The notes under the pieces were generated by a model, which did no database searches, was not told where the DNA came from, and worked only from the letters and a program-made list of their open reading frames with translations. Below, one piece after another: positions 1 through 64,000 of a DNA stretch of 64,000 bases; within the stretch, counting starts at the first letter, position 1; each line of letters begins with the position of its first letter. The stretch spans positions 57,729,257-57,793,256 of the forward strand of contig OX104128.1 of the NCBI GenBank assembly GCA_944470555.2, given 5' to 3'. Made by a program: the position numbers and the translations under genes. The stretch is from Heterobilharzia americana (taxonomy: Eukaryota > Platyhelminthes > Trematoda > Strigeidida > Schistosomatidae).

Positions 1-99
1 TGTTCGGTCCTTATCATTTTAGAAGTTTTGAACATCCTCACTAACAACCATCTTAGTTATTTGTTATAATGTCCTTTTTTACAAGCTGAAAGCCCTACT

Positions 100-480
100 T
101 GACCTAGTTTTTGTGTATTTGGTACTTGTCAGAAAAAAAAGTATCCGCAATCTTTACGGGACTGATGTCTCACCCTCATCACCCAGTGCTGCAGTCAGAG
201 ACTTTAACATATTGCAAAATAATCAATAGAATTCGATGCCTACTCACGACTAGACAACATGAAGTTGGTTACCCTCCAGTGAGCATTTAATGTACCTAAT
301 CCATTCCTACAGAAGGTTAGTCACGTCTCTAGTAGCTTAGTGGTAACGTCTCTGACTGCAGCACTGAGTGGTGTTGGTTCGACTCTCAAGTAGGACATCA
401 GTACCTTCAAGATTGCAGATATTACTTTGCTGATGAGTGCCAAAAAGTACGAACCCCAAGCCAGGACTTCTAGCTGACTA
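100..480. repeat. Family D SINE fold-back with degenerate hammerhead
   Basis: Left part (113-210) is the inverted, diverged copy of the right part (343-470). The right half has a tRNA-like A box (tagcttagtggtaacgtct) and B box (ggttcgactc), then CTGATGA at 430-436, stem II gtgc/gtac and GAAC instead of GAAA. The cleavage triplet is GCC, which is not NUH, so this ribozyme is predicted dead. Confidence 0.7.
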
Positions 481-609
481 CCTCAAACCAACTAACATCT
501 GTTCTGTTTTGATTTGCCTCCTTTCTTATGTTTTGTTTTTCAGTTCGGTGAACTGAATCGAAGCACTTCCTTACAAGCCTTTATTTTAATCTGTCTATTT
601 GTGTATCTG

Positions 610-945
610 AAGAATAGGCAACAAGGAGCTGTGCCAACGAATCAACGAAGCAAGAACTCATCGCCAAACAAATATGCAGAAGAAGAAGGTGAAGATGGAT
701 CGGACATACACTAAGAAAACCATTCGGGGACATCACGCGCCAGGCACTCGAGTGAAACCCAAAGGAGAAACAACGAGTTGGGCGTACGAGGGTGACAAGG
801 AGGAGATGGTGTGAGGAAGAAATGAAAGCTTGTGGACAGTTGTGGGGCCAGGTTCAAAAGACTTAAGAGAACAGAATGAAATGGAGACGTGCAACTGAAG
901 CCTTATGTTCCACTAGGAACCCAAGGGAAAAAAATAATAATAATT
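610..945 (+). mobile_element. Non-LTR retrotransposon L1-family 3' end
   Basis: Matches the 3' end of the LINE copies at 14832-15917 and others: caggcactcgagtgaa, ggtgtgaggaagaaatg, then ccactaggaacccaaggg followed by an A-rich, taataa tail. Carries only the last part of the ORF, frameshifted. Confidence 0.8.
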
Positions 946-1181
946 TGTGTATCTAATGCTGGTCGTGTGTAATATCTTTACTCGGTTCCGAAATGCTTAC
1001 AAATAAACCAAGTTAACATATCCAGATACTGTGAAATACTTCTGATAATTTCTGTTGAAAAATATAGTGAATGCTTTACACATAGACGAAACAATATGCT
1101 CTACAGTTTAAGTAACTGAAACTGCAATTTTCCATTAATTGATTTCAGGCTAAAAAGAAAGTCAGACTTATAAAAACTCAC

Positions 1182-2422: not shown

Positions 2423-5400
2423 CTAAAATATAGAGAAAAACACATAAGAAGCAATTTATTTTTTTCATTGAATATACTTCAAGTAATTTTTTGTTTGTAT
2501 TGTCCCCTCGTTGAGTGGAGCGAAACGATCGGTCTCTATTGGCATATGGGCTCCTGTGCGGATGCCTCGATATTGCCTGTCTTTGAGTTATATGCTAATG
2601 ATAGAGCACATATGCCAATAGAGACCGGTCAATTCAGTCCAATCAACGACGGGATAACACAAGCAACAAGAAGTGGCTGTTCATGACTTGGTGGTCTAGA
2701 GGATAATGCTCCGGCATTTGGAGCGATCGGGTGCGAGTCCGAGTCCCACTGGGGAGAACACTGCTCACTGTCAAGCAAGTACATCCAGCTGACGACTCCC
2801 AAACAGAAGGAAACAAGCATCCTGGAATCCACTGCCAGCAACTATCCATTATATATATATATATATATATATTTCAGGCAACTTGGAATTATTGAAGAAA
2901 GATGAAAATTCCCACTTGACACATTGAACAAATATTCGAAGTATTCTAAACATGTTTAAGTCCCCATGTACACATACGACATCTGCAAAACTTGACTGAA
3001 TACAAACAACCGGAATCCTTAAACAACTGAATGCGTACTATGATAAGAACATCGTCGGGATAACTACCTTATAGGATGGTTATATGTTTAAAAAATTCTC
3101 ATCCCCCAATTTCGATATCATTTATTGAAGTGTACGAAAATCATGAATGCAAGTTGTTTCTTTTTTAATAAGTAAATTTATTTTGGGGTTAATGAGGACT
3201 TTAATTTAAAGTTAGTATTAATCATGGACTGATATTCGTCCGGAGAACCACTGAAAACTTGGGAGTGCTGGACAGCTGTTTCGTCTTAGCAAGGGACTCC
3301 TCAGCAGTCCGCACCCACGAACCCTGCATGGACCGAACTCAAGACCTTCGAGATTCCATCAAGATCATTAAAATCCGACCCAATGGCTAAATGGCTGACG
3401 TGTTTGTTGTGAAACCTGAAAATGCTGAGTTCAGTTCCTTACGACGTCATGGGTGTGTACTGCTGAAGAATCTTATACTAAGAAAAAACAGCATTCCAGT
3501 GCTCTCTGGTTTTAAATGGTTCCCCAAGTGATGTCATTCCATGATGAATACTACCTTAATAAGTAAATAAAAAGTTGGTTTTAAATTATCTACGATAATT
3601 TTTATCCCAAAGATTCATGATCGATATGATTAAAATAAATGAGCTTTCAAAGAGTAACATTGATAACTGACAGATAGTTGTAGAAACATTGAAACCTAGA
3701 ATAGAATATTTTTTTAGTATGAGAACTTGTTTTTACTAAAAATTCTAAAAGTTTATCAATTATTGGTAATCACTGCAACTGTTTAGTTACAAGTGTTGAT
3801 CAAAATATGTCGATCAAGTTTACCGTTTACCCATCAAACTTTAGTGATGCAACATCACGGTTGGCTTATGTTTTGACGCTAGATTTTCAAAATCAGCAAT
3901 ACATATCAGTAGCTTTGTAAGTTCATCCTATAAACTTTGACTAACCAACGTGATCTGAATGGTATAATGATAAAGTTAATGACTCCAGAATTGACCCATA
4001 TAAGTTGAAATTTACAAGAGAACACTAGTTTCCTAAAAGTCTTAGAAGCATCTTTGTAATGAGTTTCAATAAGCTTATTATTCTCTCTTAATCTTTGATA
4101 TAATAATCGATTTTAGCACATTATCAGGGGGTTTGAATTTGAAACGTTTAGTTTCCTAAGGTCATATCATACCAGAAAAGCTTGTTGAATACTAATAAGA
4201 CAAAACAACAGTAACCAATATAGTGTAAATAGTTACGCTGTGATGAGTATCTGGGGATGAAGTTATACTACTGGTTGGATGGCATGTCACAGCAAAAAGA
4301 TGGTTTCAGACAATGGACCAGTAGTACATGCTGATACTGCCTTCCCTGTGTACAGGTAAAGGGATCAGGAATGGTCGGTCCAAAAAAAACACATTTCCTC
4401 CTACTCTGAGGTATTCTTTAGCCGGTAGTATGAGTTTCCTAGCTGGATTTAAGTCAATCAAAGTTAAAACTCAAATTTCACAAAGGCCATGCATGATCTG
4501 GCACAATCAGATGTTCCTTGAACTTTGCCATCCTGCATCACAATTACTAAAATAATTTCTCCTTCAGATATCTCAAGAAGGAGTGACCTTTCATGTTGTT
4601 GACAGCTAAGAAGTGTCAACTGCCTTTTCAACCCTAGTAAGCCTCAAGTTCCCTCAGATCATTATCAACATTCCCATACTTAGTCTTCAATCTCTCTCGG
4701 CACCTGACAGTTAATATTCCTACGTCATTTATTTCAGCTCTGTAGCTCTCAAGGAATGGCATTATTAGTCTTCTGAGACGGCAATCCAAACCAACTTTCG
4801 ACCCCCTCACCTTTCGTCAAATCAAACAAACTTGGTGGGTCAAAACTTCGGCATATCGGGTCATAAATATGAGATGTGTTTCTAGAGAATTTATGGCTAA
4901 CTCGTGAACTTGTAGGCATTTGTGTAGCATTCTGTGCTAAGCCAGAAAGTATGTGGCTCGACTGGATCCCGGTTGATACTGGCTGACTTGGACATGCACT
5001 GTGCATGCCAAACCACCAACTACCTCAACACACCATACAAAAGAAAGTTGGCTAAGGTTGAAGAAGCGTTCACGGTGACCAGATCAACACCTAGCATCAC
5101 TCGATCAAGTCTCACACTGTTGGTCTCAGTCGTATGGGGAAACGCAAAACAACCTGATTCAGATCTCCAACTCACAAGGAATCAGTGGTTCACGATTCTT
5201 CGTGACATGACTCAAAATCAGTCACAATGGAGCAGATTTATTCACTACTTGACATCTAATGAAGCTTGAATATTCATATTAACCTTCATCCACAGATTCT
5301 TGATTGTCTCACACTACTTTATCTACTTTGATATCACTCCTTTATCTTTCGACGTGTTGTTTGTGTACTATAGTGAAGTGTGTCAACTTCAGCTGATGTA

Positions 5401-8400
5401 TCTATGTGAAAGGTTCTACGTTGATTTTCTGAATGTATTGTCAATAAACAAGGAATTCGCCTCAGTGTCTAATAAGTAGAAAAGTGATCTTGATTTCACA
5501 ATTGTTGATCAACTTTTATAAAGGTTGATAATCCCCTAAAGTCTAAGGATATTGCTTTGTATATGCTAGAGGTTGACAGCTATGGAGAAAGAATAGTTGT
5601 TCGTTTGTGGAAGCTTGCATCATGGATAGGTTGACACCCGTAGATTTGATCACTCTTACGACTCATCTTATCAGGTTGGCTTTATGCTTCCTTGTCATGT
5701 GGATATAAATATCAGCGATCAGGTAGAATTTTTATGTAATAAACCACTGAGAAAATTTCTCCATTATATTTCAGATAAATAGTTCTACTTTTTGTGACAA
5801 TAGCAAAACAACAAGCTGTGAGATAAGCAAAAAAAATTTTATATCATTTTTTTTCATTTATTTAAACGTAGATTAAGCGAAATAAATATGTAAAGTGTGA
5901 CATGACCTTAGAAATCCAAAGTAATACCTATCCATATTGTATTTCCTAATAAGTGACAAGAATGTGGTAAGAGAATGAATGATGAGAATACAAGTATGCT
6001 TGCAGATGATATATGTGTGGAGACTTAAGTAAGTAGCAAATTGATCAGCGTTATACTGCTAAAGAAATATGCTGAAAGTAATTGGAGTTTTAAGTTTTAA
6101 AACTGAAAAGTTATTGAGATACTATGCAAAAAGTAACACCAGGAATAAGGCAACATTATTACGGTCACATAAAGTTACCAATAAATTTTTTTGTAAAGGC
6201 AGAGACAGTTAGGCCATCTTCATTACTTTCCTTTTTTATTTGTCCCTTAGGTTTCTAGCGGAACATATGGCTTCAGTAGCACATCACCATTTCACTCTCT
6301 TCTCCCCACTCTTTTCAACCCGGCAACACCACTCCCCTCAAACTTTCATTTCCTACTCACACAATCTACTCCATGTCACCCTCGCCTACGACACCCAACT
6401 ACTCGTTTCCCATTTGCCTTCCACTCCACGACCTGGCCTGATGCGTCATGTCCCCAAAATGTCTACTCAGTCTATGTCCAATCCAATCCAATCCAGTTCA
6501 CCTCCACTTCATTCTTCTCCATATTTGTTGGGCTATACATTCTTGGTTGGTTAGTTGGTTGGTTGGTTGGTCGATTCGTCACCAGCCAGACTTCCTCCTT
6601 GCTCATTCTTATCATTATCATCACCATCCGATCTTCATCTTCACTATCAACTCAGTGTAGGCGGCAGCTGTTCATCCATCATGTATTAGTCTGTTGGAAA
6701 TGCTTCAATGTTTTAACGCACCAAATCTATCAACCATCACATACAAGCACTGACTTACTTGACTGACATTAGTGTTGAAAATCCGGATCTTGTTCATGCT
6801 TTATGATGAATGCAGTGCAGTGCAGTGCAGTACAGTCGACCTCCACACTGATTTCAGATTAATGCATGAATGCCTGTCTTTTTGTCTTTCCGATCCTGAC
6901 TTTGGCATCCTCATCTGTGCCGCCTGTAGTTGAGACGGTGGTGCCTAGGTAGGTGGGTGTGAGAGACAACTTCCTTTACATTTTTCCCGTTCATGGTGAG
7001 TGGTTCTTGTTGTTGTTGGTTGGGTATCATCATCACCTCTGTCTTTTCTATGTTCACCTGAAGGAAGTCCTGTCTTGGCTGCCCTACCACTTCTACCAAC
7101 CTGTAGATTTTCCAGTTTGTGCGACATAAAACATTAGACATAAACCATCATCAGCGAAATCTAAGTCTTGTAGGGTCTTTTCATTGGTCACTTCTGTCTG
7201 AATCTTTCTTAATTTTCATGGACAGACATAGGGAGAATTATAACAATAAACGAAAGCGCATCGGTTCAAGCCGTTGTATTTTAAAAACAATAGAAAGAAA
7301 TGAAAGAAAATTCTCAACAGATAGAGAAAAAAATTAAACAGAGTAATAAAAATCTACATTAAAACCAAAACAAACCTGTCTGAATGCTAAATCTTCACGT
7401 CGGGCCATCATTTTCTGTACTAATTGACAAACTTTAATCTTAATTTGAAGAGAATGTACACATTCTAGGTGACGAACATACCTTTATAATGAATAAGTAG
7501 TAGATAAAAAGGTTGTTTAAGCATAGACTGACCATGGTAAGAAGCAAAATATAAGATTGACAAATTGTCTAGGCTACTAGTAAAGAATAAGCTTATCTCC
7601 TACATACTCAGTAGAATATTTGCAACAGGTATGAGTCAATTGAAGTTTGGTTGCAAAGACAATTCAACTGATTTATCTGGACAAAAGTATTTCTTAAGGA
7701 TATCTAGTCCTGAATGTAAAGATTATAAGTAGAATCTATCTACAAAGAGTTAACTATTTCTTTACTACATCCTTCCCTTAAACATTTAACCAAAAGTTCA
7801 ATTAAGAGGTCAGGTTGGTATTCATCATAGCCTGACATCTGTTGGAGAACCACTGAAAGTCTAGTGGCACCGAACAGCTGTTTCGTTCTAGTATGGGACT
7901 CCTTAGTAGTACGCAGTCATGACCCTGCCATGAATCCACCCATATACTGAGACGAAACAGCTGTCCAGTGTTCCCATGTTTCCAATGCTTCTCTGACTGA
8001 TGTCAGTCCATGAGGAATACTAACTTGCAATCAATAAATGAACCCCCATAAACCTCAGAATTGAATTACTCTCTAATGCTCACTAATGACTTGTTTCGAG
8101 ATGGTATTTCCGAAGTTTATATGAGAACTCGTGACCAGTGTGACGAACCAATGTAGACATGAGGATAGTTTCTCAATGTGGATCACTGGATACTGACCCA
8201 CTAATGGTAACATGCTGACTGTAGAACCTGAAGGTTTTGGGTCCGATCTATAATGGTTTATGGCCACGCACTGTTGAGGAGCCCCATACTACGACGAAAC
8301 AGCTGGAAAGTGCTTCCAGGTTCCCAATGGTTTTCCAACTGATGTTAGTTTACGATGAATATCAACCTGAAATTAGTCAGAAAATCTGTTGAAATAACCA

Positions 8401-11376
8401 CCTATAGCAGGTACTTTTGTTTAGAAATACAAACATAAAACTCCTTCAAAGTGATGGATGGGTCCTGTAGAAATATTCAGTATTTAAGGGCACAGTGTAC
8501 ATGGGGTATTTTCATTATTCGATTCCTATGGCTTTAGTATAAAAACTAACTCTAAGAATTCATACTGTGCCCTGGAAACCACAATGTACAGAGAAGCTTG
8601 TATAATGTTGACTAGACAAACAGGTGAACTTTCTCATGAAGTTGCATCCGGTGAAATAGCTATGAAGTTTATTTAACAAAATATTCAAACTGATGAATTA
8701 TTCTGTCGAACAATCAAGTTTTATTACAGACTGAAGAAATTTTGAAAGCAGCGACTGCTGAGTTTCAGTCCTGCTGCTCTACCAACTGAGTTACGAGATT
8801 CGATTATTGACCACATTTTTATTTCACCTCAGTCAAAAAGGGTTCTACCCGATTGTCATATGAATTCATGACCATACACAAACTGGCTGCCTAATCAGAA
8901 CTTCACATCTCACTCCAAATCTACTGAAATTAAAAAGAGAGGAGCATCATATTGGTTATCATTTTAACTATCTAAGATAGCCGCGGTTTGATAGACTTGT
9001 ACTGATACTATATGATGATTGAAGTGAAATAAAAATTTGGTCACCAGTCGGTTCTCGTAGCTTAGTTGGTAGAACACTGGTTCGAATCCCTCCGTGGTCC
9101 AAGTTTTCATTTCACCTTCAATCATCACCCAGTATAAATATTAGTCTACCAAATCACGACTATCTCAGATATTAGTCAAAATAATGAACAATATGCTATT
9201 CCTTTCCTTCTCTAATTCAGTTAGATTTGGATTGGAATGAGAAGTCCTGACTAGGTAACCAGTGTGAATAAGATCAAGCGGTAGTAACGCGTCACGAATT
9301 CACATAGTAGTTGGGCAAAATCCTTGGTGATTGGAGTGAAATAAAGAAATCTGGTCAGCAGTGGGACCTCGTAGCTTAGTTGGTAGACCACCGGGCAGGA
9401 AACTCGGTGGTGATTGGTTCGAATCCTACTGTGGCTCAAATTATTTTAAATTCATCAAAGGAATCAAATATAGGATAGAATATATACATTTACACATGAA
9501 CTTACCTAACGATATTTAACATTAAACTTTCTATACTAACCAATTCCAAGTGATCACTTAGTCGATCAACAGATTTTGTACGTTTATCCAGTATACTACG
9601 CATAATAAAGATAACATTTTCAATAAATAATGTATTTGTCTCTGTGACAACAACTTGTTGTTGTCCTTGCCCAGAAAAGCATGCATCCACATGACTACGT
9701 AATTGATTGAAAAGAATTGGATAAATTAAAGGATTCAATTCATTACCAATAGATTCTTTCACGTGTTTTTGTATTTGATGGCCAAATTTTTCATGTTGAC
9801 AACTAATTAGTAATAATAGATTACCTATGAACCTATAAAATATGAGTAAAATAATAAAAAAAAATAGTAGAATACTATTCAGTCTATGAAAACAAAATTT
9901 TGACTTTGTATTCATTTTGGTAGTTTGCAATGGAATCAATGACATGCGTTTCGTCCGATTGGGTACTCATCACCTGGATGTATCTGCACTCCAGTGAATG
10001 ATGGTATTCCCACTGAGACTTAAACTCGCTTCAAAAGCTAAAGCGTTATTCACTAAGCCACTAGGGCATGAAAGTAACCACTTGTTCAACGGGTAACATT
10101 TGTTGTTATTCGCCTTTAATATATATTATAAAAGGCAAAATAGAAAGGTAAAGAAGGTTAATTGAATTCTGACTTCATTAAATTATACTTTTACTAACAG
10201 ACCAGTGAAGAAGAAGAAGAAGTGAATTGAACAGATTCCTGTTTGTAGAATGTTAATGGCAACTTATTATGAGAACCTGATAGAAACAAACCTCAGACAT
10301 GAGACTGAAGAGAAGGATTAAATGAATGAATTGATCCTGGTGGTATGTTAGATAGAGAAATAAAGAAGTTTAGTAATCGACTGAAAGACTATAGGATTAT
10401 CCAGAAGAATATGGTGAGTAGAGGAACGATGATAAGAGAAGTGTAGTATTATTCTAGAAGCACCATAGTTCGAGTTGTGTGTGTTATGTCAGTGAAACTG
10501 TTTATTGTATACAGACTTATTATTGTCAGTTGACTTCAATATAAAGAGTAGAAATTTAAAAACAAATCACTTACTGAGCTACAGGTGAGAATTGATTATC
10601 TTGATTTAAGCTAGATTGAACAAATGAAAGACGTCTTACATTATTTAATTCATTTAAACAAGCACCATGAAATGTATGATATTTATTAAGATTATGATTA
10701 TCATCAGTTTGATCAATGTCAGTTGTATTCTTATTGAAATTTGTACGATGAGATCGTAGAAAGTAATTTGCTCCTAAGCATGCTGGATCAAAATGTTGAT
10801 GTACATGATCTAATAAATGATATGAACAATAATGATAATGTGGACAATGAGATTGTAAAGATTTCACTTTGCTTTGATCCTGAAAATTAATTAAAACAAA
10901 ATAAAATAAAAGTTGTTTTAAATGAATATTTGAGGGAGATGTGGAAATTTGGAAATATTTCAAGTTGTTATTCATCATAGACTGACATCAGTTGGAGGAA
11001 CAAAGGAAACCTAGGAACACTGGACAGCTGTTTCGTCCAACTAGTATGAGACTCCTCAGCAGTGTGCACCCATGACCTCGACAGGGACCGAACCCGCGAC
11101 CTTCAGGCTCCATGGCCAGCGCGTTACCATTGAGCCACTGCGTCAGAATCCAGTGTTTCATATTTCCAACTTCTGTTAGCTCACGATATAGCGCAACAGC
11201 CGAGAAGCTGGAAATATGGACCGTGTTTTGGGACTCGTCACCTGGATGTACCTGCCTCCAAGTGAGCGGTGTTGTTCCCATCGGGACTCGAACTTAGTAC
11301 TGATCGCTTGAAACGCTAGACCACCTAACTATGATAGCCACTTATTGTGCGACGGGTATGGTTTTTGATTTTGTCG

Positions 11377-11417
<41 letters not shown>

Positions 11418-14400
11418 CTGAAACACAGGCCATATCTAGGCATCCGCACAAGAACCTATATGCCAACAGAGACCGATCAATTCGGTCCATTCAGCGACGG
11501 GATAATATAATGAACAACATTATGTCTTGTTAACTTTATTCGGATGTTTATATTTCCTATTAAACCATAGTGTTTCCTGTTAACTTACTTCATGTAATTG
11601 CAAAAACTTTATGCTTAAGTCCTTCTCTTAAGTGATTTATATATTTTTTGAGTTGTGAGCAGCTGAAGAGGAACTGACGAAACAAATTGGTACCACTTTA
11701 GTCCATTTCAAACATTGTTTTTTTTATCGACTCAAGTTCATGAAGGGGAATATGCGTTTGGAACTTCTGTAACTTGTAAACAAGTGAATTAAAAACACAC
11801 ATGTAAACTCATCAACCAAACTTCTGAAGGCATTCAGTTTACAAAAGAAGAAGATAAAAATAGTGAAATCAACTTTCTAGATGTTCTAATTAGTAAAATA
11901 CATGATGGAATGTCGTAAACTCAGGTGTAAAGAAAAGCGAAACAAACAGATTAAGTTTAGAACTACAGTAGTAGCAAACCACCATCTCATAAAAAAGATA
12001 TGTGTACCACCACTATTTGTTAGTACCAAGACTTACTGCAGAAATCAACATTCATAAAAGTTAGAAGAAAATCACCTTTACAAAGTATTCACAGATGTTA
12101 ACTTTCAAAAAGACTTTATAAAGGTGTTCCTTTCAACAAAAAAACAGAAGACATGCAGACTACCTCAGCCCTAAAAATATCACTTTACGATGCATCAAAG
12201 TCATCATCGAAATCCCTACAGAAGATCTCATACAAGGTGGAGAAACCATTACTCAAAGAAGACAGGACAAAGTCAATGCACAAAGTTAGTTTGGAAGACT
12301 GTCCGAATCAATCTCTTAGTTAATCAAGTTGTCGAACAGACTAAACGATCTATGAGCATTAACTAGCATTCAATCGACATGATATATCATCAGTGACATG
12401 GATGCGTGTAATTGAGCACAAATAAAACTTCATTTGAGGCAACATGGGAATACTACTATACGCAAGCTTAAAAACTGCAGAAGAATTTCTTGAAGTATGG
12501 TATTCCAATCTGACGGCAATCAACAGGCACACGCATAGTGGCCTAATATGCTGACTACTAAGAAGAGACCAGCCAAATGGAAATCAATCACGCGAATCAA
12601 TAGTCAAAGAATAGGTCAGTTGCATAGGTAATATAGTCACAATATTTATAAAGGTGACCTCTGATATAAAAAAGGAAGGCATATCTCTCCTACCTACAAG
12701 CTAGTAATGCTACATGTTTGCAGATATCTTACATAAACACTTGCACAAAATGAAAAAGCTACACTTCTTCATAAAGCAAATGCTGATAAGGTCATCTAAT
12801 CTGAGAATGAAAAGTTCAAGAAAAAGCTTTGATGCTTTGATGACACAAAAACGTTTTCGTCCTTGTTCTGAGCCGAAATCTTCTCTAACATCTCCGGAAA
12901 ATGAAGTACACCTTTATATACGATGGTGTGAACCCCAATTGTTTTATCCGGGCTGTATACCAGACAGAAAGAGATAAACAAAATCGATGTAGAAGCTCGG
13001 ATACAAGTGCATCGGTGCAAGGTGGCACATGTGAAGCATGACAGTAGCAGACAAAGAACAAGTGGGCAGTAAAAGACTGATATCAAAGCAGACGAAAGTA
13101 TATGGAAGGAAAAAGAATTTGGAAATGAAAGTTAATGAAAATATTCAAGCTTCAGAAGACATCGAAGAATGATCCATTTTCAGCCACGTCCCATAAAGTC
13201 TTCAGCCAAGTAGTCTACGCCTCCCTATCCCGTAAAAAACCAACAAGTAGACACTTCATCTACTGGTGTCATGTCTTGATCTAGCCACCCTCAACCCTTT
13301 TCTAACCCAATTCAACTTCTTCTAGAATGGTACGACGAGGTAGATCGTGGCTTCGCTCGCACAGCAAATGTCCAAACAATCTCAGTCACCGAAGGTTCCC
13401 CACCTAACCGACCAACTTTTCTTCTTTGCTTAGTACCCTTTGCCCATCCTCGATATTACTCACACGGTGATCCCCCTTATGTGACCAATACTACGAAGAG
13501 ATTTATGATCAAAAACATGTAGTCTCTTCATATCTGCTGCTATTAACGGAAATATCTGACAAGTATATACGAAAAAAGTAGAAGACCGTTGCACAGCATA
13601 CTCTTCCTTTAATAAGCAGTCAGATATTGAGCTGGCTGTTTGCCGGAAGGCAGACAACTGGAGTACTTCAGAACCGATGGACTTTAAATAAAATACCTTT
13701 GTCAAAGGGACATATCAACCTGAAAGTAGGTGTTTGCAAAGTTGTCTGGGTCGAGGGAGAGATTGATAACCGAATATTCGTCGGCTGGACCACAGCCATC
13801 ATTATAATAAGAATGACACTATACACGTTAGGCAGGCATCGAAAATTTTACTTCCTCCGAAACATAACAGTATTTTATTATTTGTCCCTTAGGTTTCTAG
13901 CGGAACATATGGCTTCAGTAGCACATCACCATTTCACTCTCTTCTCCCCACTCTTTTCAACCCGGCAACACCACTCCCCTCAAACTTTCATTTCCTACTC
14001 ACACAATCTACTCCATGTCACCCTCGCCTACGACACCCAACTACTCGTTTCCCATTTGCCTTCCACTCCACGACCTGGCCTGATGCGTCATGTCCCCAAA
14101 ATGTCTACTCAGTCTATGTCCAATCCAATCCAATCCAGTTCACCTCCACTTCATTCTTCTCCATATTTGTTGGGCTATACATTCTTGGTTGGTTAGTTGG
14201 TTGGTTGGTTGGTCGACTCGTCACCAGCCAGACTTCCTCCTTGCTCATTCTTATCATTATCATCACCATCCGATCTTCATCTTCACTATCAACTCAGTGT
14301 TGGCGGCAGCTGTTCATCTATCATGTATTTAGTCTGTTGGAAATGCTTCAGTGTTTTAACGCACCAAATCTATCAACCATCACATACAAGCACTGACTTA

Positions 14401-48257: not shown

Positions 48258-51200
48258 TTGATTCATCGAAAAGGGAATTCTTCTCTCACAGACCACAAAA
48301 TTCTATAGAAAAGAGAGTTAAGCATCTTCAATGGCTGGCTATCCAGCAAGTCATGACAGTCTTGTTTATAAGGTAGATGAATGTAGTTAGTTCTAATGGT
48401 TACACCATTAAAAAACAGCAGGCTAAAGTAGTTAAATAACATGACTACCATATTTATTACTTCTCTAATTGTAAATTTCGAAAACTCCATCAATTCATAC
48501 CAAATAATCCTCCATCTTATTTGAACGCATACTGACTTACAGTTTATAGAAAAAAAGTATTAATGTACATGAATCAACCAACTGTATCACACACACACAC
48601 ATACAAAGTATGAAAATAATAAAAAATAATTTCATGTTATGTAATTTTACCTGTGTAATAATTCGATAAAGTCCAGAGACAAGTACAGTATGATAAATAG
48701 CTGGTGATGTTGTTTGCAGGCAAACTTTAAGGAGATTTTTATTATGCGGTGTAATACGGAAATAGGCGACAAAAAATTCAGTTAATAATGATTCACTTTC
48801 TGCTAAATTCTGATTATTTCTTACATAAGGTTTATTTGGATTGAATAATAAATTCTATTTGTTTTGTATTCATTTGTAATCATAAAAATAAAATGAAAAG
48901 TACAAAAAAAAAGAACAAAGGGGTTAGGTTTATTGGAATATTTCCTCCAATTTGCACTAGAAAGTAATAATTTCAATAAAATTGTTATGCAAACTTGTAC
49001 ATCTAGTCTAATCTACAAAATAAAAAGATTATTTGTTCTCTTTAAATACGATATAAGAATATGGAAACAAGAAGTACTTCAGTGAAGAGTCTCTTTCCAG
49101 CGAATTCATTTACTTAACTATCCTATCGTATTTATATACAATTTTCTTTGTTGACAATGTTTCTATTTTGTTTCATATTGTGAAGGCAGTTGCTTAGACA
49201 TGGTAGCAAGATGATATATATTTATATATAAAATGTAGTCTGTTGAATGGATAACAGTGAAATCCAGGACGCACGTGTCGTCCTATTTGGGACTCATCAG
49301 CTGGATGTGCCTGCACCCCACTGAGTGGTGTTGTCAAGTATCAATGAACACCAACTGATACGCATTGCGCAGTTGGTGGCTATCGTGCCCAAGTGATCTG
49401 GTGGACAATATTCTAGCGTTTGGAAAGATGGGTACAGGGTTCGAGTCTCTGTGGGAACACAACTCGGGGGTGAAGGTGTACCCAGCTTACGAGTCTCAAA
49501 TAGGATGAAACAAATGTCCTGAATTCAACTGTTAGTCATCAAATAGACGACAATGCATAAACTTATTCAAATGTCTTCTGTGAAGACATGCCTAATTATC
49601 CCAGGTACTTAGTTAACAAACAATGGGTCAGAGGTTAAGCTCTGCTCTAACTACTTTGATTTGGGCAACCATGGTAAAGTGTACAACGTAAATCTAAAAT
49701 ATTTAATCAGTGAGATATGAGTATGTGATGTAAATTATCTACTTCAGATTTTTTAAATTGGACTGTATAAACACTTATGATAGTATTCCTTGATTTTGGT
49801 TACCATAGGGTTCGAGCCACTGCTACTTCACATTTCTCCAAACTCTTTATTTGTATATCTTACCTAAAAATATCTTATTGATCACTTGTTTACAATACAA
49901 ACTTGATACACTTTCCTGAGGTCAAAATCTAGTTAATTTGAACAACAACTATGATACCACTTTTATATAATAATTCCCCCTCGTCCCTACTCATCACTAG
50001 TACCAAATTAAAAATACCGTCAATATCAAGGCATACGCACACGAGCCCATATGCCAATGAAGATTGATCAATTGGTCCCACCAAAGAAGTGAAACTACAA
50101 GGTATAACATCAAAACTAAACTATGCCCGTCATGCAAGGGATGGATATCGTGGGTCAGTGGCCTAGTATATTACACTGTGGCTCTCCGTTCGAGTCTTGG
50201 TGAAAACAATATCACTCACTGGTAGCTACGGAGCAATGGCTCAGTGGTTTGTGGAGATGGCAATCAACCATTTAGTTGCGGGTTCGAACCCGCGCCACTC
50301 ATCCAGGTTTGGGAAGCCAGGTAGAATCACCAGCCCTCAGACAACAAGTATAACTCATTTCCAACTGCACGGGTGTACTCAGGGCGGCTGAATGCGTTCC
50401 GTTCGTACCAGGAGGCTGGCGCACCTAGCTGATGACCCCCAGACAGGACGAAAAGCTCATTCTGAATTCTCCTGCTAGCCACTATCCATTATTGTTTACA
50501 GAATCACTGCCATTTGTAATTAGTTATTCATTCAGCATACTTTCTTATCTGAAAGCAACAAGCCATTTATTGAATACTTCATCAGGGTAGTCCATATAGA
50601 TTAGAGAGGGGGAGAAAGTAATGTATTTCATAACTGATTGCATATCCTTATGTGAAAATACATGACATCACCAGATTGATCAACTGTATAATCTACTCCT
50701 ATTGATTACTTCATCAGTTGAGCAACTAGTAGTTAGTCCAAACGATTAAATACATGAAATTTTGATGCAAACAACACACATTAGTTTACGCAATGTCAGT
50801 CTATTAGCCTTGGTATTTCATTCACAGAGAGAGGAAGAGAGAGAGAATGAAAAAAAGCAACATCAACTATCTTGACAACAATTAAAAGTGGCTTCGCTAC
50901 GGCTCGAATCCAGGGCCTTCAGGTTCCCTGGACAGCACATTACCGTTGAGTCACTGGGTAGGAATAGAATGATCCATATTTCCTACTTCTGTAAGTGCAC
51001 GATATAGCGCAACCACCACCCAATGTCATCTCCCAGTATTTGTCGTCACGTCCACGTTAGTTTGCCTCACTGGTCACGGCTTTTCATTGGGACTTCTCGA
51101 AACACGTCACTAATAAGCACTGGAGAGTAATTCAATTTGGAGGTTTGCGAAAACTCATTTATTAATTTCAGGTTGACATTTATCACGGACTGACATCAAC

Positions 51201-54200
51201 TGGAGAACCATTGAAAGTCTGGGACCACTTGAAGCCTGATACGTCCTAGCATGGAGCTTGATCCCTAGCGAAGTTATGGGCGCGCACTATTGAGCAGCCC
51301 CATACTATGACGAAACAGCTGTCCAGTGCTCCTAGAATTTTAAGGATTCTCCAAATAATATCACTTCATGATGAATACCAACTTGAAACCAATAAATCCC
51401 CACAACCCCCAAATTGGATTTATGCTCATTGTTATTTTTACAAAATGAATAGGTTATCTTATAACAATTTTGTACAGGCTAGATTACGATGATACTACTT
51501 CTGTGACATAGTATGAAAACAACTACTCTGATTCATTAGATGAAATTAATAAAATAATAAGCAATACAACAAGTTTCAGCTGATGACTGTTGTAGCTGTG
51601 TAACCCTCGGTGGCCAGCACCCGTAGAAATCTGTCGACCAAGTTTTCAATGTGACCGTTAAGATAAGTGAGGCGTTACTGTAGTGCACCATATTTCAGTG
51701 TTAAATGTTAAAAGTTGACTGTGATAGAAAACCCTAAACCTCGGTTTCTTACTTATTGGTACTCATCAGTCCTATTAGTTTGGACACAGCAAGAAAGACG
51801 AAATTTTCAGAGTCTGCAACAGTTATTAGGAGGTAGGATATTTTCAAAATCAGAAAATTAATAGTCCCATATTGTTCAACCAAATCATTGATAATCTATG
51901 TAACATATACAGAAGGATGAGAAATGTAAGAAGAGAAACAAAATGAATCAAGAGCTGTGCAATTAAGATGATACAGCATCAAATCATATTCATCATGGCA
52001 GTGAAAGATAAACCATACTTTCCATCTGTATGTAAAGGTCAGATTGAAGGCATTTTATTGCAACCTCTCCCATGAAACGCAGTAATCCAAATATCCTCTG
52101 TATATTTATTATTGTAAGCGCAGTCGTGGTTTCAACCTAATGTCCTATATCTATGATGTATCTGGTCATTGCACTAGTTAGAATTCCATTTCCTTTCAAG
52201 CACAAATTCATGGTGATATGTTCAGTGAACCGATTAGACGCCCTCCTCTCAGTCCCTCTAATGTACTTGCTACCAAAAGTGCATGTGAATTCAGAAATAT
52301 AGTTGAAGGTGAAATGACCAGAGTAATTATCCATTTCTGACTGACTTAACAAGCATGTGATATTGTATACTGATACAATTTTAGCTTCAGTTAATTTGGT
52401 TAACGCTTCTGACATCCATATAGTTCATCTAATAAAAAGTTATCATTCTATCTGAGATACCCGTGGTTTGGCAGACGTGTATTAATACTGGGTGATGATG
52501 ATTGAAGATGAAATGAAAATTTGGACGGAAGCCAGATTCCAACCTGCAACCACCGGGTCTCAAGCCCGATGCTCCACCAACTGAGCTACGATGCCCGACT
52601 GCTGACCAGATCTTTATTTTACTTCAATCACCAATGGATTTGCCCAACTAGTCGCTGGTTCGAATACCCTAACAGTCCAGATTTTAACTTCACCTTCAAT
52701 CGCCAATACAAGACTGTCAAACTATGGCCATTTCAGATAGTGGTCAAAATGATAATCAGTATGATGCTCCCTACGTCTCTAATTCAGCTAGATTTGGATA
52801 AGGATACGAAGTCCTGACTAGGCAACCAGTGTGAATAAGATTAAAAGGTAGTAACGAGTTACGAATTCACATGGTAGTCGGGTAAAACCTTTAGTGATTG
52901 AAGTGAAATAAAAATTTGGTCAGCAGTCGAACCTCGTAGGTGTGTTGGTAGGGTACCGAACCAGAAACCCGTTGGTAGCTAGTTCTAATCTGGCCGCGAT
53001 CCAAATTTTCATTTCACGCTAAATAATCATCTAGTATTGATAAGAAATTATCATAAACCGTCAATAGTGTTAAATACTGTGGATCTTTTATTACTACTCG
53101 ACGTTTAAAATCTCTTGGTTCATTGAAAAGAGAATATGCTTTTAATAGCTTAAAATTTTTTAAAGTAAAATAGGTTACTGATCTGAACTTGTCATTCACA
53201 TAAAATAATCCACTACTGCTTGTATTACCTCCCCGTGATCTCATTAACATAGTAATAATAATGATAATTTTTAGCTAGTGTTTATCACGGTCTGATATTA
53301 GTTGGAAAACCGTTGAAAACCTGGGAGCAATAGACAGCTGTTTCGCCATTGTGTATGACTCTTGGCTAGGGATCTAACTCAGGACCATCAGGTCTCAGAG
53401 CGAACGCTTTAGTCATTCAGCCACTAGTCAACAGATTTCTACGTCTATCGATCCACGATATCGCGCGACTATCATCAAAGATCGTAAGTTAGCATCCCCT
53501 TCACTTTCAACTGGTTAAACCCACAGGTCACGGTTACTCATCAAAACTTTGTGATATCCATCTCGAAGCATGTCACTAGTATGTACTGTACAGTAATTTA
53601 GTTTGACGTCAATGGGGATTCATTTTTTAAAGTAGTATTTATCACTAACTGACATCAGTTGGAAAATTAAAATCCCCATTAGCCTCAAAATACAATAATA
53701 TTAATGGCTTTATTCTGAAAGATATTTCTAAATGACCTTGACAACATTAAATCTACATGTAGGTAAAAATAGTTAACACCAGTGCTAGTTCAGCCTTGAG
53801 AGCAGAGGGAAGAAAAAATAGTAACGGTATGAAAATAGTCACGTAGGTTATTTTAAGGTCATAGACAAAAAAGCAGGTAAAATTAGGGGTTGATAGCACA
53901 TAAGCAATTAGATTCATAATACTTAAATAACAGCAAGCTGTGTACTCATTAATAAGCTGGTTTTCGAAAGCGAAAGTTGATTGGTTAGTTTATTTGTAAT
54001 ACTTTGTCGTACAGGATACGAGTTAAATGCGGTATGGTAGAGTTTTTATATTTATTAGTACGCCCATAAAGCCTCATGTACTTGCTCCTGGTATTGTCTG
54101 AGAACCTAGAAATAGAGAGTTTTGAGTCAAGAAGATGCTACTCATCTGATAAAATAACTTCTGTCAGATGTCTACATGAGTTAAGATGTTTGTCTACAAC

Positions 54201-57200
54201 AATTTCTATAAGAAGAAGATTTAAAGATACCGACAACCTTCAAAGTTCTACGCATTTACACCAATCTGAATGGTATCACGTTGTTTATTTGTCACTTAAA
54301 ATAATTTCATGGTAATGCAGTGAAGTGAAACACTGAGTATTGTGGTTAGTAATACTAAAAGCTATAAGCATCTATTCAAAGACGCTGATGATGTCTAATA
54401 CAGCATCATCAGTCGATTATTATTGCAATTCAAGGCTTTAACGCGAAATAATTTATTCGCATAAATGAAACTGTGAAAAAAATATTGTGTGAATAACAGT
54501 GAGACTATATATATTACTCAATTTGTACTATCACACAATCATTCTATGTTATATAAGCAAAAACGAAAATGAAAAGCTAATTTCTGAGAAACACTTTTAC
54601 CTTCAACGTATACAACAAAAAACAAGATCAATGTATAAGCTTACTTGTAAGTCTGCATACACTGAATGAACGAGAATGAAGAGAATATTATTTCGATCAT
54701 TTATATTGATATACGTTGATGCTTTGCATAAATTAACAGCGGCTAGTAATGCAGCCTCTAGTAACGCTGGTTTACTACCACTACTTCCATGGCCATGTGA
54801 AGCAAGAGCTTTACGAACCTAAAAAGATAAGTTTTTAAACAAAATAGAAAGATTATATCCTTAGATGTATCCGCGAATCCAAAATAGATTACATTAGTAA
54901 TCAAATGACATAAACTACGGACGAATTTGGATTGAACAAAACTTCGATATTACTAATTCATTACTCTACCCACTTGAATCTGAAATAGAAATGACAATTA
55001 GTGTTGTTATTTGAATTATCCTCTCGTTGATCTGACCGAATTCCCCGGTCTCAGATCGGATATGGGCTCCTGCGTGGATGCCTAGATATTCCCTACCAGT
55101 AGCTAGCAGTGAAATCCAGGATATGCATTTCGTCCTACTTGCGACTCGTCAACTGAATGCACCCGTCTCCCAGTGAGTGTTGTGGTCCTAACTAAGACTC
55201 GAACCAAAAGCCGATTGCATCAAGTACCAGAGCGTTGTCCAGCGGGCCATCGAGTAACGATAGACACTTCTTGTACAGCGGGCATAGGTTTAATGTTGTT
55301 ATTTGCATTTTCTCGCCGTTTATTGGACAGAATAGTCGCTCACTGAGGGGCGGATACATCCAACTGATGAGTCCCAGATATAAAGAAACCCTCATCCTGG
55401 ATTCCTCTGCTACCCACAACCAGGTAACTTACCTTAATAAGTATTCAGGCAACATCGAGGCAGCTGCATAGGAGCCCATATGTCAACAGAGATCGAACAA
55501 TTCGATCCAGTATAACAGCGGAGAATTACAGGCATATGAACAAACAGTTATAGCTAACACCCACTGTACAAGAGTTGGTGCTTCGGCATTTGAAGCGATG
55601 GGTATGAAGTTGGGGTCTCAGTGAGAACGACATCACTCCGCACTGGGGCGCAGGTACACTCAGCTGACGAGTCCTATATGGGACAAAATGCGCATTCTGG
55701 ATCCCTCTGCTAGCACCATCAAGTAAATTACCATAATAAAATATGTTTTCCTTTTAACTGCTTTTCCTGTAGAATTCGTTTTACACACTCAACTGCTAGT
55801 GTCAGATTTTCAAAATTATATCCTATTCTATCCAAATAAAAGTCTCATCATGTAATATATCTGAAGACATCATGTAAGCCGTTTAAACACAGTGACACAA
55901 TAGTTTTCCTTAATAACGGCCTGTGGCTATATCATAAATATATAGATTATAAAAAACTATTTGTTTTCAATTCAGTAGTATAGTGGACTCAAGCTAAGCT
56001 TGTATGGAAAATAAATACAGTAAAAGATAAACTAAAATGATACTCTACTGGTGATTAGGGTTACTTTATCTCCTCACGAAGATCAACAATTCTTGTGGTT
56101 ATGATAAAAATCTTTGCTATTAAAAATTCGATTACTAAGAGCTGTTTCCATCACTTGAAAATGAAATTCTCACTTTAAAGTTGTACCTCTGAATACCAGA
56201 TTATTGACTTTGGAACAGTAAGATGGTTTTCATTGAATGTACAGTTGCATATAGTGACTATTATTATTATGTAAGTTTATTGTATGTCTTTCAAGACAAT
56301 CAATTAAACTTATCCATTACAGGATATTCGTTTGATTCGTTTTGATAATTTTAGTTGTGTTCTGTAAGCTCAGAGAACACAATACAACCAAGACCATCCA
56401 TCTGAGCTACCAATATTCTCCACCATTTCAGTTTCATTGTTAACATATGGAAGACAGAGAAGCTAAAATTCAGTCATTCCACATTCTCTTATTTCGATTA
56501 AAAGCATGCCAGTGTCATTAGATACTACTAGCAAAACCTATTTCACATAAATGATCACTCCTATTCTGTATACGGTTTTATGATGCAGCCACTAATTATG
56601 CTTGACGTTTTTACACTGTATATTAATCAGTTGTCTTTGGCTGATTGGATTTGAATCCATTGACTAGAACTGTATTGTTATTATTTTTGTCCCTTAAGTT
56701 CCTAGTCGAACATAGGGCTTCACTAGGACGTCGCAACTTCACTCTCTTCTCTCCACTCTTTTGGACCTGGCTCCACCACTGCCCACAAGACTTCACTTCT
56801 TCCTCACACGATCTTTTCCATGTCACCCTCACCTCAGACGCCAAACTCGTCGTTTCCCATTTGGCTTCCACTCCACAGCCTTGTCTGGTGCGAGATGTCC
56901 CTAACCCGTCTTCTCGCTGTATGTCCTATCCAATCCATCTCCACTTTCCGCTACATATTTTTTGAGCGGTAAGTTCTTAGTCGGTTGGTTTGTTTCCTGC
57001 CACAGTTCCTTATTCTTATTATTCTTGTCACCTGACCTTCAGAATCAAGTGAGTGTAGGCGGCAGCTGTTGATGATGTATGTCTGCAGTTTGTTGGAAAT
57101 GCTTTTCTTAACGTGCCAGATCTCTCAACCACCACATAGAAGCACTGACTTACTTGACTGACTTAGTGTTGAAAATCCGGATATTGTTCACGCTTTATGC

Positions 57201-58197
57201 TTAATGCAGTACAGTGTAGTGCAATAGATCTCTAAACTGATTATTTCAGATTAATGAAGGAAGGTCTGTCTTGCTATCTTTTCGATCCTGGCTTTGACAT
57301 CGTCACCTGTGCCGCCTGTAGTTGAGACGACGCTGTCCAGGTAGGTAGGTGAAAGGTATAACTTCCTTTAAATTTCTCCCATTGATGGTGATTGGTGCTC
57401 GTTGTTGTGGTTGTTGTTATTGTCGTTGATTGGGTATCTTTATCACCTCTGTATTCTGTACGTTCACCTGAAAGAAATACCGTCTTCGCTGCCCTACCTC
57501 TCCTGTCAACTTGTTAGTTTGCGCCTGTAGATCCTCGAGTTTGTGTGACATTATATATAAATCATCATCCGCGAAATCCAAATCTTCTAGGGTCTTTTCA
57601 TCGTTCAAGTAGAGCATGCCCATCTTCTCACTCCTCACAGTTTGTTGCATGATCCAGTTCATTCCAGTCGACCACAATTAGGAAGATCATCAGTGACAGT
57701 AGGCAACCTTGTCTTACTCATTCCTCTCTTCACTTCGAAGGCATCACTGAGCTTTCTATTGTGAATCACTTGGCATGTAGCATCGTCACATTGCTGTTGA
57801 ATGAGGTTGATAAAGGTTTGTGGCCCTCCGTAGTGTTGAAGCAGCTACCAAATTATTTTACTCACTAGCACTGTACTAAAATTAATCGTATTGTTATCAA
57901 AGATAGAAGAAAAGAAGAAAAACAGTCAATAAACTGTACTTACTTCATCTAGAAATTGTTTCTTTTTTTGATGTTCTGGGGATAATGGTGCACCATTTTC
58001 AGCATTATTAATCTCTTCTAGAATTTTTGGACAAAGTACTAAAAGCATCATTTGCAATGGCCAGACAAGAACTTTTTTTCGACCACTCTCAGCGCAAAGT
58101 GATGAGAACAAATCAAATAGACGTTCACAACAATCTTTATTCAAAGGGAGAGAGAGAGAAAGTGGCTAGAGGAAATGTCATATTAAAATAAATAATC

Positions 58198-58267
<70 letters not shown>

Positions 58268-61200
58268 TGGAGGCAATTGGTTGGAAGTTCTGAATCCATA
58301 TTTCATACTTGTTGGTACTTATCAGCAGGTTTATCTGCAACCTTAAGGGAACTGATTCCGCCTCAGAGAGGCAAACCCCTCGTCACTAAGTTCTACATTT
58401 AAAGAATCTACCATACAGGCATACTTGTATGTCAGACAAAATCTACATAGAACCTGAATGACTTTAAAGGCCACCCTAGCAACCATTAGGACAAACAATT
58501 ATGGTTCTGTTATTTTATGAAAATCTAACTTCCTAGCTGAAATATCGAAACTTGGTTGGCTGTTCCACCAGTTGCCGGGGTACCTTTAAGGTCACCTTAG
58601 AACCTCGCACGCAAGTGTATTGATTCTAGTTGCCACAACTCATAGTAGCATTCAAAGAACAAATGGATAGAATAGGAGTGATATCAAAGTAGACAAAGTT
58701 TATGTGAGAGAATAAGCAGTTTAAAGATAACGGTTAGTGCAAATATTCAAGTATTAGAAGACGTCAAGAAGTGAATACATCTACGTCAACAGTGTCACTA
58801 AGACTCCTCAACTATGAGAAATTATGCACATGAAACCATGTTTTAGGGATAGGAAAAGATAAAAACCCTTTTTATCATTATCCTGATGTCTGCTTGGCGG
58901 TCAGTAGTAGAATTAAAAATGTGCATTTCGTCCGATTTGGGACTCATCAGCTGGATGGACCTGCACCCCGGTGAGTGACGTTGTTCCCAGTAAGACTCGG
59001 ACCTAGTATCGCTTTAAACAAAAAACCGTTATCCACTAAGCCACTGGGGCACGATAGCTTACTAGATAGTTGTCTGGAGTTTGAAGCGAAGGGTACTGGG
59101 TCCAGGCCTCAGGGGCAACAACATCACTCACTGGGGTGCAAGTACATCCAGTCGACGAGTCCCAAATAGGGCGTCTTGGATTCCACTGCTATCCACTGAG
59201 CAGACAGCAATAATAAGTAACCAGGGAGTATCGAGACATCCACATAGCAGCCCATTAACCAACAGAAGTTGAGCCATTCAGCCTTGTACAGCAACAAAGG
59301 AATTAAAAGTGTCAAAAGCAACACTGTTATCATTCTAGTCACATAGAATGCAACCATAGGCTGGCTGGCCAGAACAAAGTAAAAAGCTATGCATTAGTAT
59401 AACAGAGTAGTTCGTCATGATTTCAATCACCATAAAGAAGAAAAGGTAATAAAGGTAACATGAGTTAAAATTGAATAACACATAGAACCTAGCTACTTAA
59501 GAATTCAATAGTGATGTATAGATAAGTATTCCCTACTTATGTTGTTTCCTTTTACTACGAAGAATCCAATGAAGATAGATCTTTCCAAAGTTCTACGTGT
59601 AATCTTGTACTTGGGCTCTTAGCTGATGGCATTCCTACAGGGATGAACGCAACTTTTTAACTGATAAAAAATTTTAAGAAAATACCATACGTAAACAGCT
59701 TTCAGCATCTGTCCTTGGGTTTTGTGGTTACTCAATACCTTTTCACTTTCTAAAGATTTCACATTTCATCCTGCGTATATCCTCAGATTTTCAACAACAT
59801 ACAACTTTCCAAGTCAACGTCAACCCACTTCATCACTGTTTTGCCCTCCTTATCTCCCACAGGTATCAACATCTCATTCATGATTTTCTCAACTTCTTAT
59901 TATACATCTGTTGATAAAGTGCTATGTTAGTTTGCGTATAAGAACAACAGTAAAACAATAACACTATGGTAGAATATTATTCAGTTTAGATTTATGATCT
60001 TGGTGAATAGCAGAGGAATCCAGCATGCGCGTTTCGTCCTGTTTGAGACTCGTCAGGTGGGTGTACCTGCACCCCAGTGCGGAGTGATATTGTTCTCACT
60101 GAGACTCGGACTTCTTATTCATCGCCTCAAACGCTAGAGCGTTATCTACTAGGCCACTGAGGCATGATAGCCACCTCCTGTGCAACGGGTGTCAGTTGTT
60201 GTAATGATACTTGTGATTTCCCGTTGCTATACAGGGCTGAATCGCTCGATCTCTGTTAGGTTTTGATTGAAATTCATATTAGTTTGTTACTTCATTGAAT
60301 AAACGGTCATTTCTGTTTGAAACAGTGGCATATTTTGTAAGTTAATAAGAGTGGTAGAAGAGTTAGTTTGTTTACTTTATGCATTCCACAGTGAAATAAC
60401 ATGGTTTAAGGTGATATTTTCACAGACAAAATTTATTATTCACTGCCATATGTTGGATTGTACATTCTTGTATAATTTGTGCCTGGCATATTTCCTGGGT
60501 ATATCGCTTGGTTAAATAAGCTTCAAACGTCAAATGCATACTAAAGGAGTTATGAATAATCTTGAAAAACACAGAGGGAATGCATATTGTGAATTTCTCT
60601 AAGAGGTGAGTATCTAACCACCATACCTTCAGTATGATCTGAAATCAATTTCAACTTACCTGTCAAACTTCTTGCAACTGTTGAGAAAATGCTACAGTCA
60701 AATAGATTTATGATGTAGTTACTAAAAGTATGGTTTTTTCCCTTTTCCTATGAACTGAAACAAACAATGAACGAAACTGCTCTGTTGATGATGAGAAAAA
60801 CCTCTTTAAGGCTTCCTGTTTTGACACTTCAAGCTTGTCACATCCTAACTTTCTGCCTAACTATATGATAATTGTCAGTATGCAATTCAAATTCACAAAA
60901 CCCAACTACTCTAATTCATTCACAGCTGATATTGTTCGCTTTCGTAATGAATAATAACAATGGCTATATCATTAAATTTAGTATTTCTCGAGTCTATTTT
61001 CTCGTTAGGCTATAGTTACAGCCAACTATAACTAACCACTGATACCATAATACTTTTCGGATACAACAACTAATGGTGTCCGTCAAGGATGTCCCATGTC
61101 ACCATTCCTAGTTAGTTTCGTCATAGATGTAGCAATGGAGGTAACCTTAGGTATGTCTGACATCACATAACTTAACCTGGTTGACTTGGAGTATGCAGAC

Positions 61201-61550
61201 AATGTTGTCCAGGTAAGTGAAGATGCTGACAAAATGCAGGGTCTTCTGAACACTGATAAAAAAAATCTGAGTGTGTTTGTTATGCGTCAGACTAGCACCT
61301 GTCAAATGTCAGACGATGCTCCAAGATTAGTGTGAAACGATCCCTAGTTTATTGATAGGGAGTGAAGTGTTGGAAAGTGTCGACCACTTCACTTACCTAG
61401 AAAGTTGCATCAACTGGAACGGATTGGTTCATGACGAAATCTCAACTAGAATACAGAAACCGCATTTAACATTTGCCAACTTGGGTCATCTGTGGCGCCG
61501 ACTGGCGAGATATTCAGCTATCTATCAGAGGATGAGTATACTGCACTGCA

Positions 61551-61607
<57 letters not shown>

Positions 61608-63729: not shown

Positions 63730-64000
63730 CTTTAAAATATTGAATTTTGATGAATGCCATTAAGGGTGAAAATAATGATGTCAACAGTTCAATGTGTGGT
63801 AAAAGTCCATTAATAATTAACTTCCTTAAAACATCTACAACGTATAAACTAAAGCACCACTGACCTATATATGTGCATGTAAAAGATAGTAGTTTCTATC
63901 TCTGAGTGAAATCATCCAGAGAACCAGTGATAGTGTGAAAGCATTGAACAGTTATTTTGTCTTAGTTTAGGATTTTTCAGCTATCCACAGCCTCGTGAAA
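63730..64000. other. Intron 5' of window exon 1 (partial)
   Basis: AT-rich with a decayed family B start at about 63905-64000 (ctgagtgaaatcatccagag, aacagttattttgtcttag). No exon seen. Confidence 0.6.

Follow-up and report, generated by a model that had tools for sequence, protein, structure and literature searches.

The window, by which we mean the whole 64-kb stretch of DNA that was analysed (G+C 34–42%), contains on its two strands 13 type I hammerheads at or above the gathering score of Rfam Hammerhead_1 (the RF00163 kind) and 13 further, weaker hammerhead matches. All 26 belong to three families of short repeats, 8 to family B, 15 to family C and 3 to family D, for which consensus units of 389, 317 and 334 nt, respectively, were built from the window copies; the 317-nt figure rests on old, gapped copies of C, and all copy counts given here refer to this one window and to diverged copies. 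Family B is represented by a minus-strand reference head at 11017–11144, in which A and B boxes are followed by a type I hammerhead with the stem III sequence ACAGCTGT (Rfam, 40.8 bits). A single minus-strand arm of the SMalpha-like family C at 60003–60257 likewise consists of a head and then a hammerhead, at 60018–60062 (Rfam, 43.8 bits), and a single short form of C on the plus strand at 29589–29764 has a tRNA-like head and stops just beyond the hammerhead. The family D hammerhead at 44938–45007 is HH9-like, with stem III ACCTAGGT and 33.8 bits against an HH9 cut-off of 52. The highest Rfam score, 62.3 bits (4.6e-14), is that of a family C copy. Most hammerhead copies are decayed, both core motifs, CTGANGAG and CGAAA, being intact in only 8 of the 26.

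Promoter boxes and ribozyme anatomy

On the sense strand of the consensus units, the A and B boxes together score 15/16 in B, 16/16 in C and 14/16 in D, at spacings of 43, 44 and 43, and these scores are reached by 4, 0 and 25, respectively, per 2000 first-order Markov controls. On the antisense strands the corresponding scores are 12, 11 and 11, values that more than half of the controls attain. In a looser test that admits spacings of 30–61, the observed score was reached in 10 (B), 0 (C) and 45 (D) of 300 shuffles, and the best A box of D was located elsewhere; the box evidence is least certain for this family. One B head aligned over its full length, if weakly, with the Rfam tRNA model (12.5 bits, cut-off 29), slices of one C and one D copy gave no match to that model at E up to 10, and ARAGORN found no tRNA gene in the window. 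With 13 hammerheads above the Rfam cut-off and box spacings of 43–44, the joining of A and B boxes to a hammerhead in all three families, as proposed in the first-pass annotation, is borne out, and the boxes of B, C and D may serve as internal tRNA-type promoters. In family B a TTTT just 3′ of the cleavage site lies ahead of the start sites described below and could terminate polymerase III transcription before they are reached.

Other elements of the proposed common design need qualification. The hammerhead had been placed 50–80 bases after the boxes, which agrees with the distance from the A box to the ribozyme start (about 61–81 nt across the three families) but not with that from the B box to the hammerhead start (about 18 nt in B and 37 nt in C and D). 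The families had also been called independent sequences. The consensus units of B and C match only in a 28-nt part of the ribozyme core. Those of C and D can be aligned along 81 nt, B box and ribozyme included (68%, E 2e-6), with equal spacing, so that with this module in common the three families are not fully independent. A self-complementary stem III, finally, had been ascribed to B, C and D alike; a perfect 8-mer palindrome is present in most B copies (6 of 8) but in just 1 of 15 C and 1 of 3 D copies. For the copies at 59146, 27505 and 414, the 8-mers are mis-framed or lie in damaged cores, and none is palindromic by eye. Co-folding yields a double-hammerhead RNA dimer for B and D, which makes it plausible that in these two families a palindromic stem III allows cleavage as dimers. 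Dimeric cleavage reportedly occurs in other minimal hammerheads.

Head-to-head pairs and target duplications

We mapped 45 arms of the three families: 14 of B (15 rows, reduced by hand through one merge), 22 of C (25 rows, after two merges and the removal of 44964–45043 as a D cross-match) and 9 of D (12 rows, after one merge and the removal of 29705–29744 and 49259–49301 as C cross-matches). With neighbours counted within 60 bp, the arms make up 30 insertions, and 15 of these are head-to-head pairs, every one composed of arms of the same family. There are no tail-to-tail pairs among the 30, and the one case of head-to-tail neighbours involves different families. In two places, 10919–11383 and 16971–17602, a copy of family B is preceded on its own strand by a copy of family C. 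When near inverted repeats in the window were listed by BLAST (E up to 0.01, at least 40 bp, less than 600 bp apart), every one, (TA) runs aside, fell in these families or in a fourth, family A.

The family B pairs lie at 3171–3571, where a 13-bp target duplication, TTAATAAGTAAAT (13/13), surrounds arms that end 93 and 59 nt past the cleavage site; at 7810–8386, with a plus arm of 1.20 units; at 18864–19283, with a 15/18 target duplication, arm ends 65 and 88 nt past the cleavage site and a minus arm in two pieces; and at 50895–51427. A single minus-strand B arm at 53265–53666 exceeds one unit. Family C pairs are found at 2488–2855 (flanking repeat weak, 9/10), 11227–11522 (with a family B copy adjoining the minus arm), 17431–17746 (complementary halves and a 10-bp target duplication, GGAACTAATT, 10/10), 18416–18576 (minus arm of 23 bp only), 27223–27649, 30806–31372, 49248–49538 (top-scoring hammerhead of the window in the minus arm), 54998–55702 (each arm longer than one unit) and 58903–59279. 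The pair at 30806–31372 carries two hammerheads in its plus arm (31003 and 31300) and an 11/12 target duplication, and its arms end 146 and 36 nt past the cleavage site. Family D pairs occupy 98–498 and 44792–45478, the latter with a minus arm of 1.18 units that holds the HH9-like hammerhead.

Each pair is probably a single integration event. In 10 of the 15 pairs no more than 0–4 bp of gap or overlap separates the two arms, and the junction falls at a different unit position in each of the 15; the pair itself is therefore not the mobile unit, and a mobile inverted dimer is ruled out. Direct repeats were sought in flanks reaching 25 nt outwards and 20 nt inwards from each end, with a threshold that was picked with the data in view. 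At a score of at least 9 they flank four of the 15 pairs and none of the 15 single insertions (null rate 0.022), and at a score of at least 7, six pairs and no single insertion (null rate 0.149). The remaining 11 pairs have no flanking repeat of score at least 9, and an earlier test, on the mean duplication score over all insertions and with wider flanks, gave no significant difference (observed 6.97, null 6.74, p = 0.135). The outward-facing 3′ ends of two cDNAs, together with the target duplications, indicate that both sides of a DNA cut were primed.

This constant geometry bears on the reading of the families as satellite-like arrays rearranged by recombination, in which the pairs would be later inverted duplications. 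On the S. mansoni W chromosome, similar hammerhead families do occur in long tandem arrays (PMC8490949), and the arms at 18864–19283 are 95% identical over 165 unit positions and have 21 changes in common, as a later duplication would leave them. Four pairs, however, are flanked by target duplications, the orientation is head-to-head throughout and every junction is different, and we consider such a rearrangement highly improbable. Moreover, with 18864–19283 excluded, derived changes common to the two arms of a pair occur at 1.97 times the independent expectation (30 versus 15.2), much like the 1.92 times found between arms of different insertions (284 comparisons), although this comparison is weak evidence because a near-consensus source would leave no such changes. 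The near-palindrome at 18864–19283, whose minus arm entered the pair and overlap analyses with the start of its smaller piece, could be a product of snap-back or of recent conversion. Self-primed snap-back as the origin of all pairs is ruled out by the 9 of 15 in which, with a 15-nt tolerance, neither arm is contained in the other.

Copy ends and the cleavage site

The hammerhead cleavage site is crossed by 37 of the 45 arms, and of the 90 arm ends only 2 fall no more than 5 nt from it (chance expectation, about 2.9), which rules out the site as the boundary of the copies. The first-pass annotation had suggested that multimeric RNA is cut to unit length before retrotransposition, and had itself named as refuting this a lack of relation between copy ends and cleavage sites. 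The ends have no such relation, and the version with linear, cut RNA fails. Its broader suggestion of a shared life cycle holds up well, since B, C and D have one integration signature in common.

Besides the head-to-head pairs, that signature includes defined 3′ ends and random 5′ ends. The best two 25-nt windows per family capture 35 of the 45 3′ ends, against a mean of 19.9 and a maximum of 27 in 2000 null simulations; the equal test applied to the 5′ ends captures 19 of 45, no more than chance, and thus reveals no clustering. The 3′ windows begin 57 and 96 nt after the cleavage site in B, 13 and 140 nt in C, and 29 and 162 nt in D, a separation of 39 nt in B and of about 130 nt in C and D. 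In the repeat-flanked pairs the exact arm ends fall 59, 65, 88 and 93 nt (B) and 35, 36 and 146 nt (C) after the site. The ends are alignment ends, in our judgement accurate to perhaps 10–20 nt in old copies, and some of the 3′ clustering in C may reflect alignments that break off in a variable stretch around unit positions 15–35. Defined 3′ ends combined with random 5′ ends point to target-primed reverse transcription from set places in the RNA. These places lie 3′ of the cleavage site, from where an open, cut RNA would give only a stub reaching back to the cut; the template would thus have been either uncut RNA or a circle re-ligated at the cleavage site, both of which are possible.

A template that was cut and closed again is what the retrozyme cycle envisages, in which the hammerhead cuts multimeric RNA, a host ligase circularises the product, and the circle gives rise to tandem cDNA that is integrated; this order of multimer, cut and circle is that of the retrozyme model already in print. 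A closed circle would give copies that extend across the cleavage site, as found here, some arms extend to 1.3 units with two hammerheads, and metazoan retrozymes are expressed as circles, as passages of PMC7229834 describe. A circle alone, however, predicts neither head-to-head pairs nor clustered 3′ ends, and family A forms pairs without a hammerhead. We regard this cycle as possible but not probable. The extent of the arms leaves a related choice: at least 40 unit positions are common to both arms in 12 of the 15 pairs, and such overlap implies either a pair of templates or two rounds of copying on a single multimer or circle.

Candidate enzymes and known systems

Family A is tRNA-headed, and by our reading of the rows 6 of its 12 insertions are head-to-head pairs, including those at 20524–20775 and at 52448–53042, where a 13/15 direct repeat near the flanks was found, the one such case among the four family A pairs tested. 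Further intervals lie at 8746–9440, 28707–28935, 34036–34175 and 39673–39951. The hammerhead search of the window gave no match in any family A interval. Pairs that form without a hammerhead indicate that the signature belongs to a common machinery and not to the ribozyme, and the equal pair rate in A means that nothing links the signature to an enzyme that recognises hammerheads. One could go further and regard the hammerheads as inert passengers of elements in which the tRNA-like head and the tail alone matter, as the spread of family A without one and the intact core in only 8 of 26 copies would allow. Yet copies decay after insertion, so that the low count says little, three families keep the motif soon after the B box, and 3 of 5 hammerheads tested from the schistosome families W25.2 and W36.2 cleave in vitro (the other 2 had damage to the core or cleavage site) in data taken from portions of PMC8490949. 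Inert hammerheads are in our estimate quite unlikely.

None of the three hammerhead families contains an open reading frame for a reverse transcriptase or GIY-YIG protein, for which units of 317–389 nt are too short, and the only D-internal frame of at least 120 codons (44964–45413) has no Pfam reverse transcriptase or GIY-YIG match. Two kinds of candidate helper are present elsewhere in the window. The plus-strand frame at 62770–63132 has one homologue, P0001 of Schistosoma margrebowiei (E 1.8e-23), among whose relatives, those listed being from Schistosoma and Heterobilharzia, are schistosome proteins named reverse transcriptase and GIY-YIG. GIY-YIG matches P0001 below the Pfam cut-off only, and the window frame gives no Pfam match to it. 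From a resemblance to the endonuclease of Penelope-like elements, and from the names of these relatives, the frame is probably the decayed remnant of the carboxy-terminal part of such an element. Taken with the G+C content and the SMalpha-like ribozymes, the blood-fluke origin of the listed relatives suggests that the window comes from a blood fluke. The second candidate is a reverse transcriptase fragment at 15345–15920 (RVT_1, 3.7e-10, above cut-off), to which frames at 14843–15580, 24741–25109 and 38887–39273 are akin by eye, RVT_1 exceeding its cut-off in the first frame only; we take the fragment and its lookalikes, by eye, to be of the RTE type.

The window holds other open frames of repeat or gene character. 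Identical frames of 121 codons in inverted orientation, about 4.7 kb apart, at 33612–33977 (−) and 38344–38709 (+) may belong to a DNA transposon as its terminal inverted repeats, and near-identical plus-strand frames in direct orientation, 7.6 kb apart, at 6251–6766 and 13893–14396 are perhaps long terminal repeats. Long frames at 1178–2422 and 20780–21976 resemble exons of a large host gene, presumably one like neurofibromin, and have no clear Pfam match.

Building on the two candidates, the repeats could be moved in two ways. If an RTE-type LINE were responsible, the pairs would be products of twin priming on one RNA, of the kind known for L1. The reverse transcriptase fragment in the window would provide for this, the target duplications of 10–18 bp are compatible with it, and the pairs at 17431–17746 and 2488–2855 resemble the near-complementary halves that it would leave. 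The 12 of 15 pairs whose arms have at least 40 unit positions in common, however, are impossible from one linear unit RNA, and inverted insertions, as given in sections of PMC2912911, number 1 of 5554 for L1-driven Alu, against 639 among 2068 for L1 itself in human and chimpanzee. Twin priming by an RTE element is therefore unlikely in our view.

We lean, if only slightly, towards B, C and D being hammerhead SINEs of a schistosome-like fluke inserted by a Penelope-like enzyme that primes at both cut ends of the target. An internal tRNA-type promoter would produce an RNA running through the hammerhead, the enzyme would cut both target strands and prime reverse transcription at both cut ends, and synthesis would begin at internal sites 13–164 nt downstream of the cleavage site, on RNA continuous across this site at the time of priming (uncut, or a re-closed circle). 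Two templates would be copied, one per DNA end, and the two 5′-truncated cDNAs would join to give a head-to-head pair and a target duplication. Against a Penelope-like helper, the pair rate of 6 of 12 in family A is obtained without a hammerhead, and the RTE-like reverse transcriptase is also in the window, an RTE with frequent twin priming being possible. The spacing of the second start also differs among the families, being 39 nt in B, like the 30–40 nt tail reported for Penelope, but about 130 nt in C and D. That half of the insertions are head-to-head pairs suggests that an enzyme copies RNA from both sides of cut DNA, and the copies argue that self-cleavage need not come before retrotransposition. 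The co-folded dimers of B and D also allow a variant in which the palindromic stem III pairs two SINE RNAs into a double hammerhead, and a dimeric Penelope-like enzyme would take this RNA pair to a double-strand cut and copy one RNA at each DNA end. The hammerhead would then serve packaging and recognition, and self-cleavage would be a brake or a later step. The pairs of family A, and the palindrome in 1 of 15 C copies, argue against the necessity of a stem III dimer, and we think this variant very doubtful.

Much of the setting is already in print: the literature describes the hammerhead SINE SMalpha, cleavage in vitro by hammerheads of schistosomes and, for animal retrozymes, the circle model, and tRNA-derived SINEs of schistosomes have been published (PMC2770079, in part). 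Family C resembles SMalpha, called W36.2 in the portions of PMC8490949 consulted; both are SINE-like with a type I hammerhead, the SMalpha unit measures 333–335 nt compared with the 317-nt consensus from old, gapped C copies, and its dominant autosomal size of 150–165 nt compares with short forms of about 160–180 nt in C. The same portions list three more schistosome hammerhead families, W25.2, W26.2 and W27.2, of 399–428 nt. B and D may be among them, and B (389 nt) may be W25.2 (415–428 nt), which is guessed solely from the lengths. Neither tRNA nor polymerase III occurs as a term in the main text of PMC8490949, the SMalpha literature, as far as its consulted sections go, describes no head-to-head pairs, no internal start sites at the 3′ side and no position of copy ends with respect to cleavage, and in the published texts, to the same extent, we found no description of tRNA-type boxes in further hammerhead families, of such pairs or of such start sites.

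As in the metazoan non-LTR retrozymes presented in parts of PMC7229834 and PMC7761336, the families have a type I hammerhead, units of a few hundred nucleotides (about 170–400 nt in the retrozymes), tandem dimers and no autonomy; type I hammerheads in units of 150–450 nt, present as tandem copies too, are thus a trait common to both. Metazoan retrozymes reportedly lack apparent promoters (passages of PMC7761336), and in this the three families differ by their tRNA-type boxes. The 5′-inverted L1 insertions in the consulted sections of PMC2912911 have a 5′–5′ inverted junction and target duplications, as the pairs do, but here the arms overlap in most pairs and the elements have the size of SINEs.

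A further parallel is with Penelope-like elements, which the same sections of PMC7229834 and PMC7761336 propose as helpers of metazoan retrozymes. In the portions of PMC11167929 consulted, the Penelope-like protein of the green anole (PAc) cuts and extends both target strands, initiates at two internal sites past the hammerhead, prefers AT-rich DNA and in vitro uses unprocessed RNA, ribozyme activity being dispensable. A hammerhead, start sites 3′ of it, extension of both strands and an uncut template are thus features that such elements would have in common with B, C and D, although Penelope-like elements encode the protein and B, C and D do not. Priming from both target strands is read here from the copies themselves, that is, from the pairs, four of which have target duplications, and a template uncut at the hammerhead is likewise consistent with them, a re-closed circle being expected to look alike. 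Hammerheads have no settled role in animal retroelements, and no motif of metazoan retrozymes reveals the autonomous element that mobilises them, according to passages of the review PMC7761336. The copies of B, C and D do carry information on the helper, in their defined 3′ starts, random 5′ ends, passage across the cleavage site and two-sided priming. Their structure points to a concrete helper class, turns the matter into one that can be tested by counting in existing fluke genomes and, in contrast to metazoan retrozymes, offers a testable route of integration.
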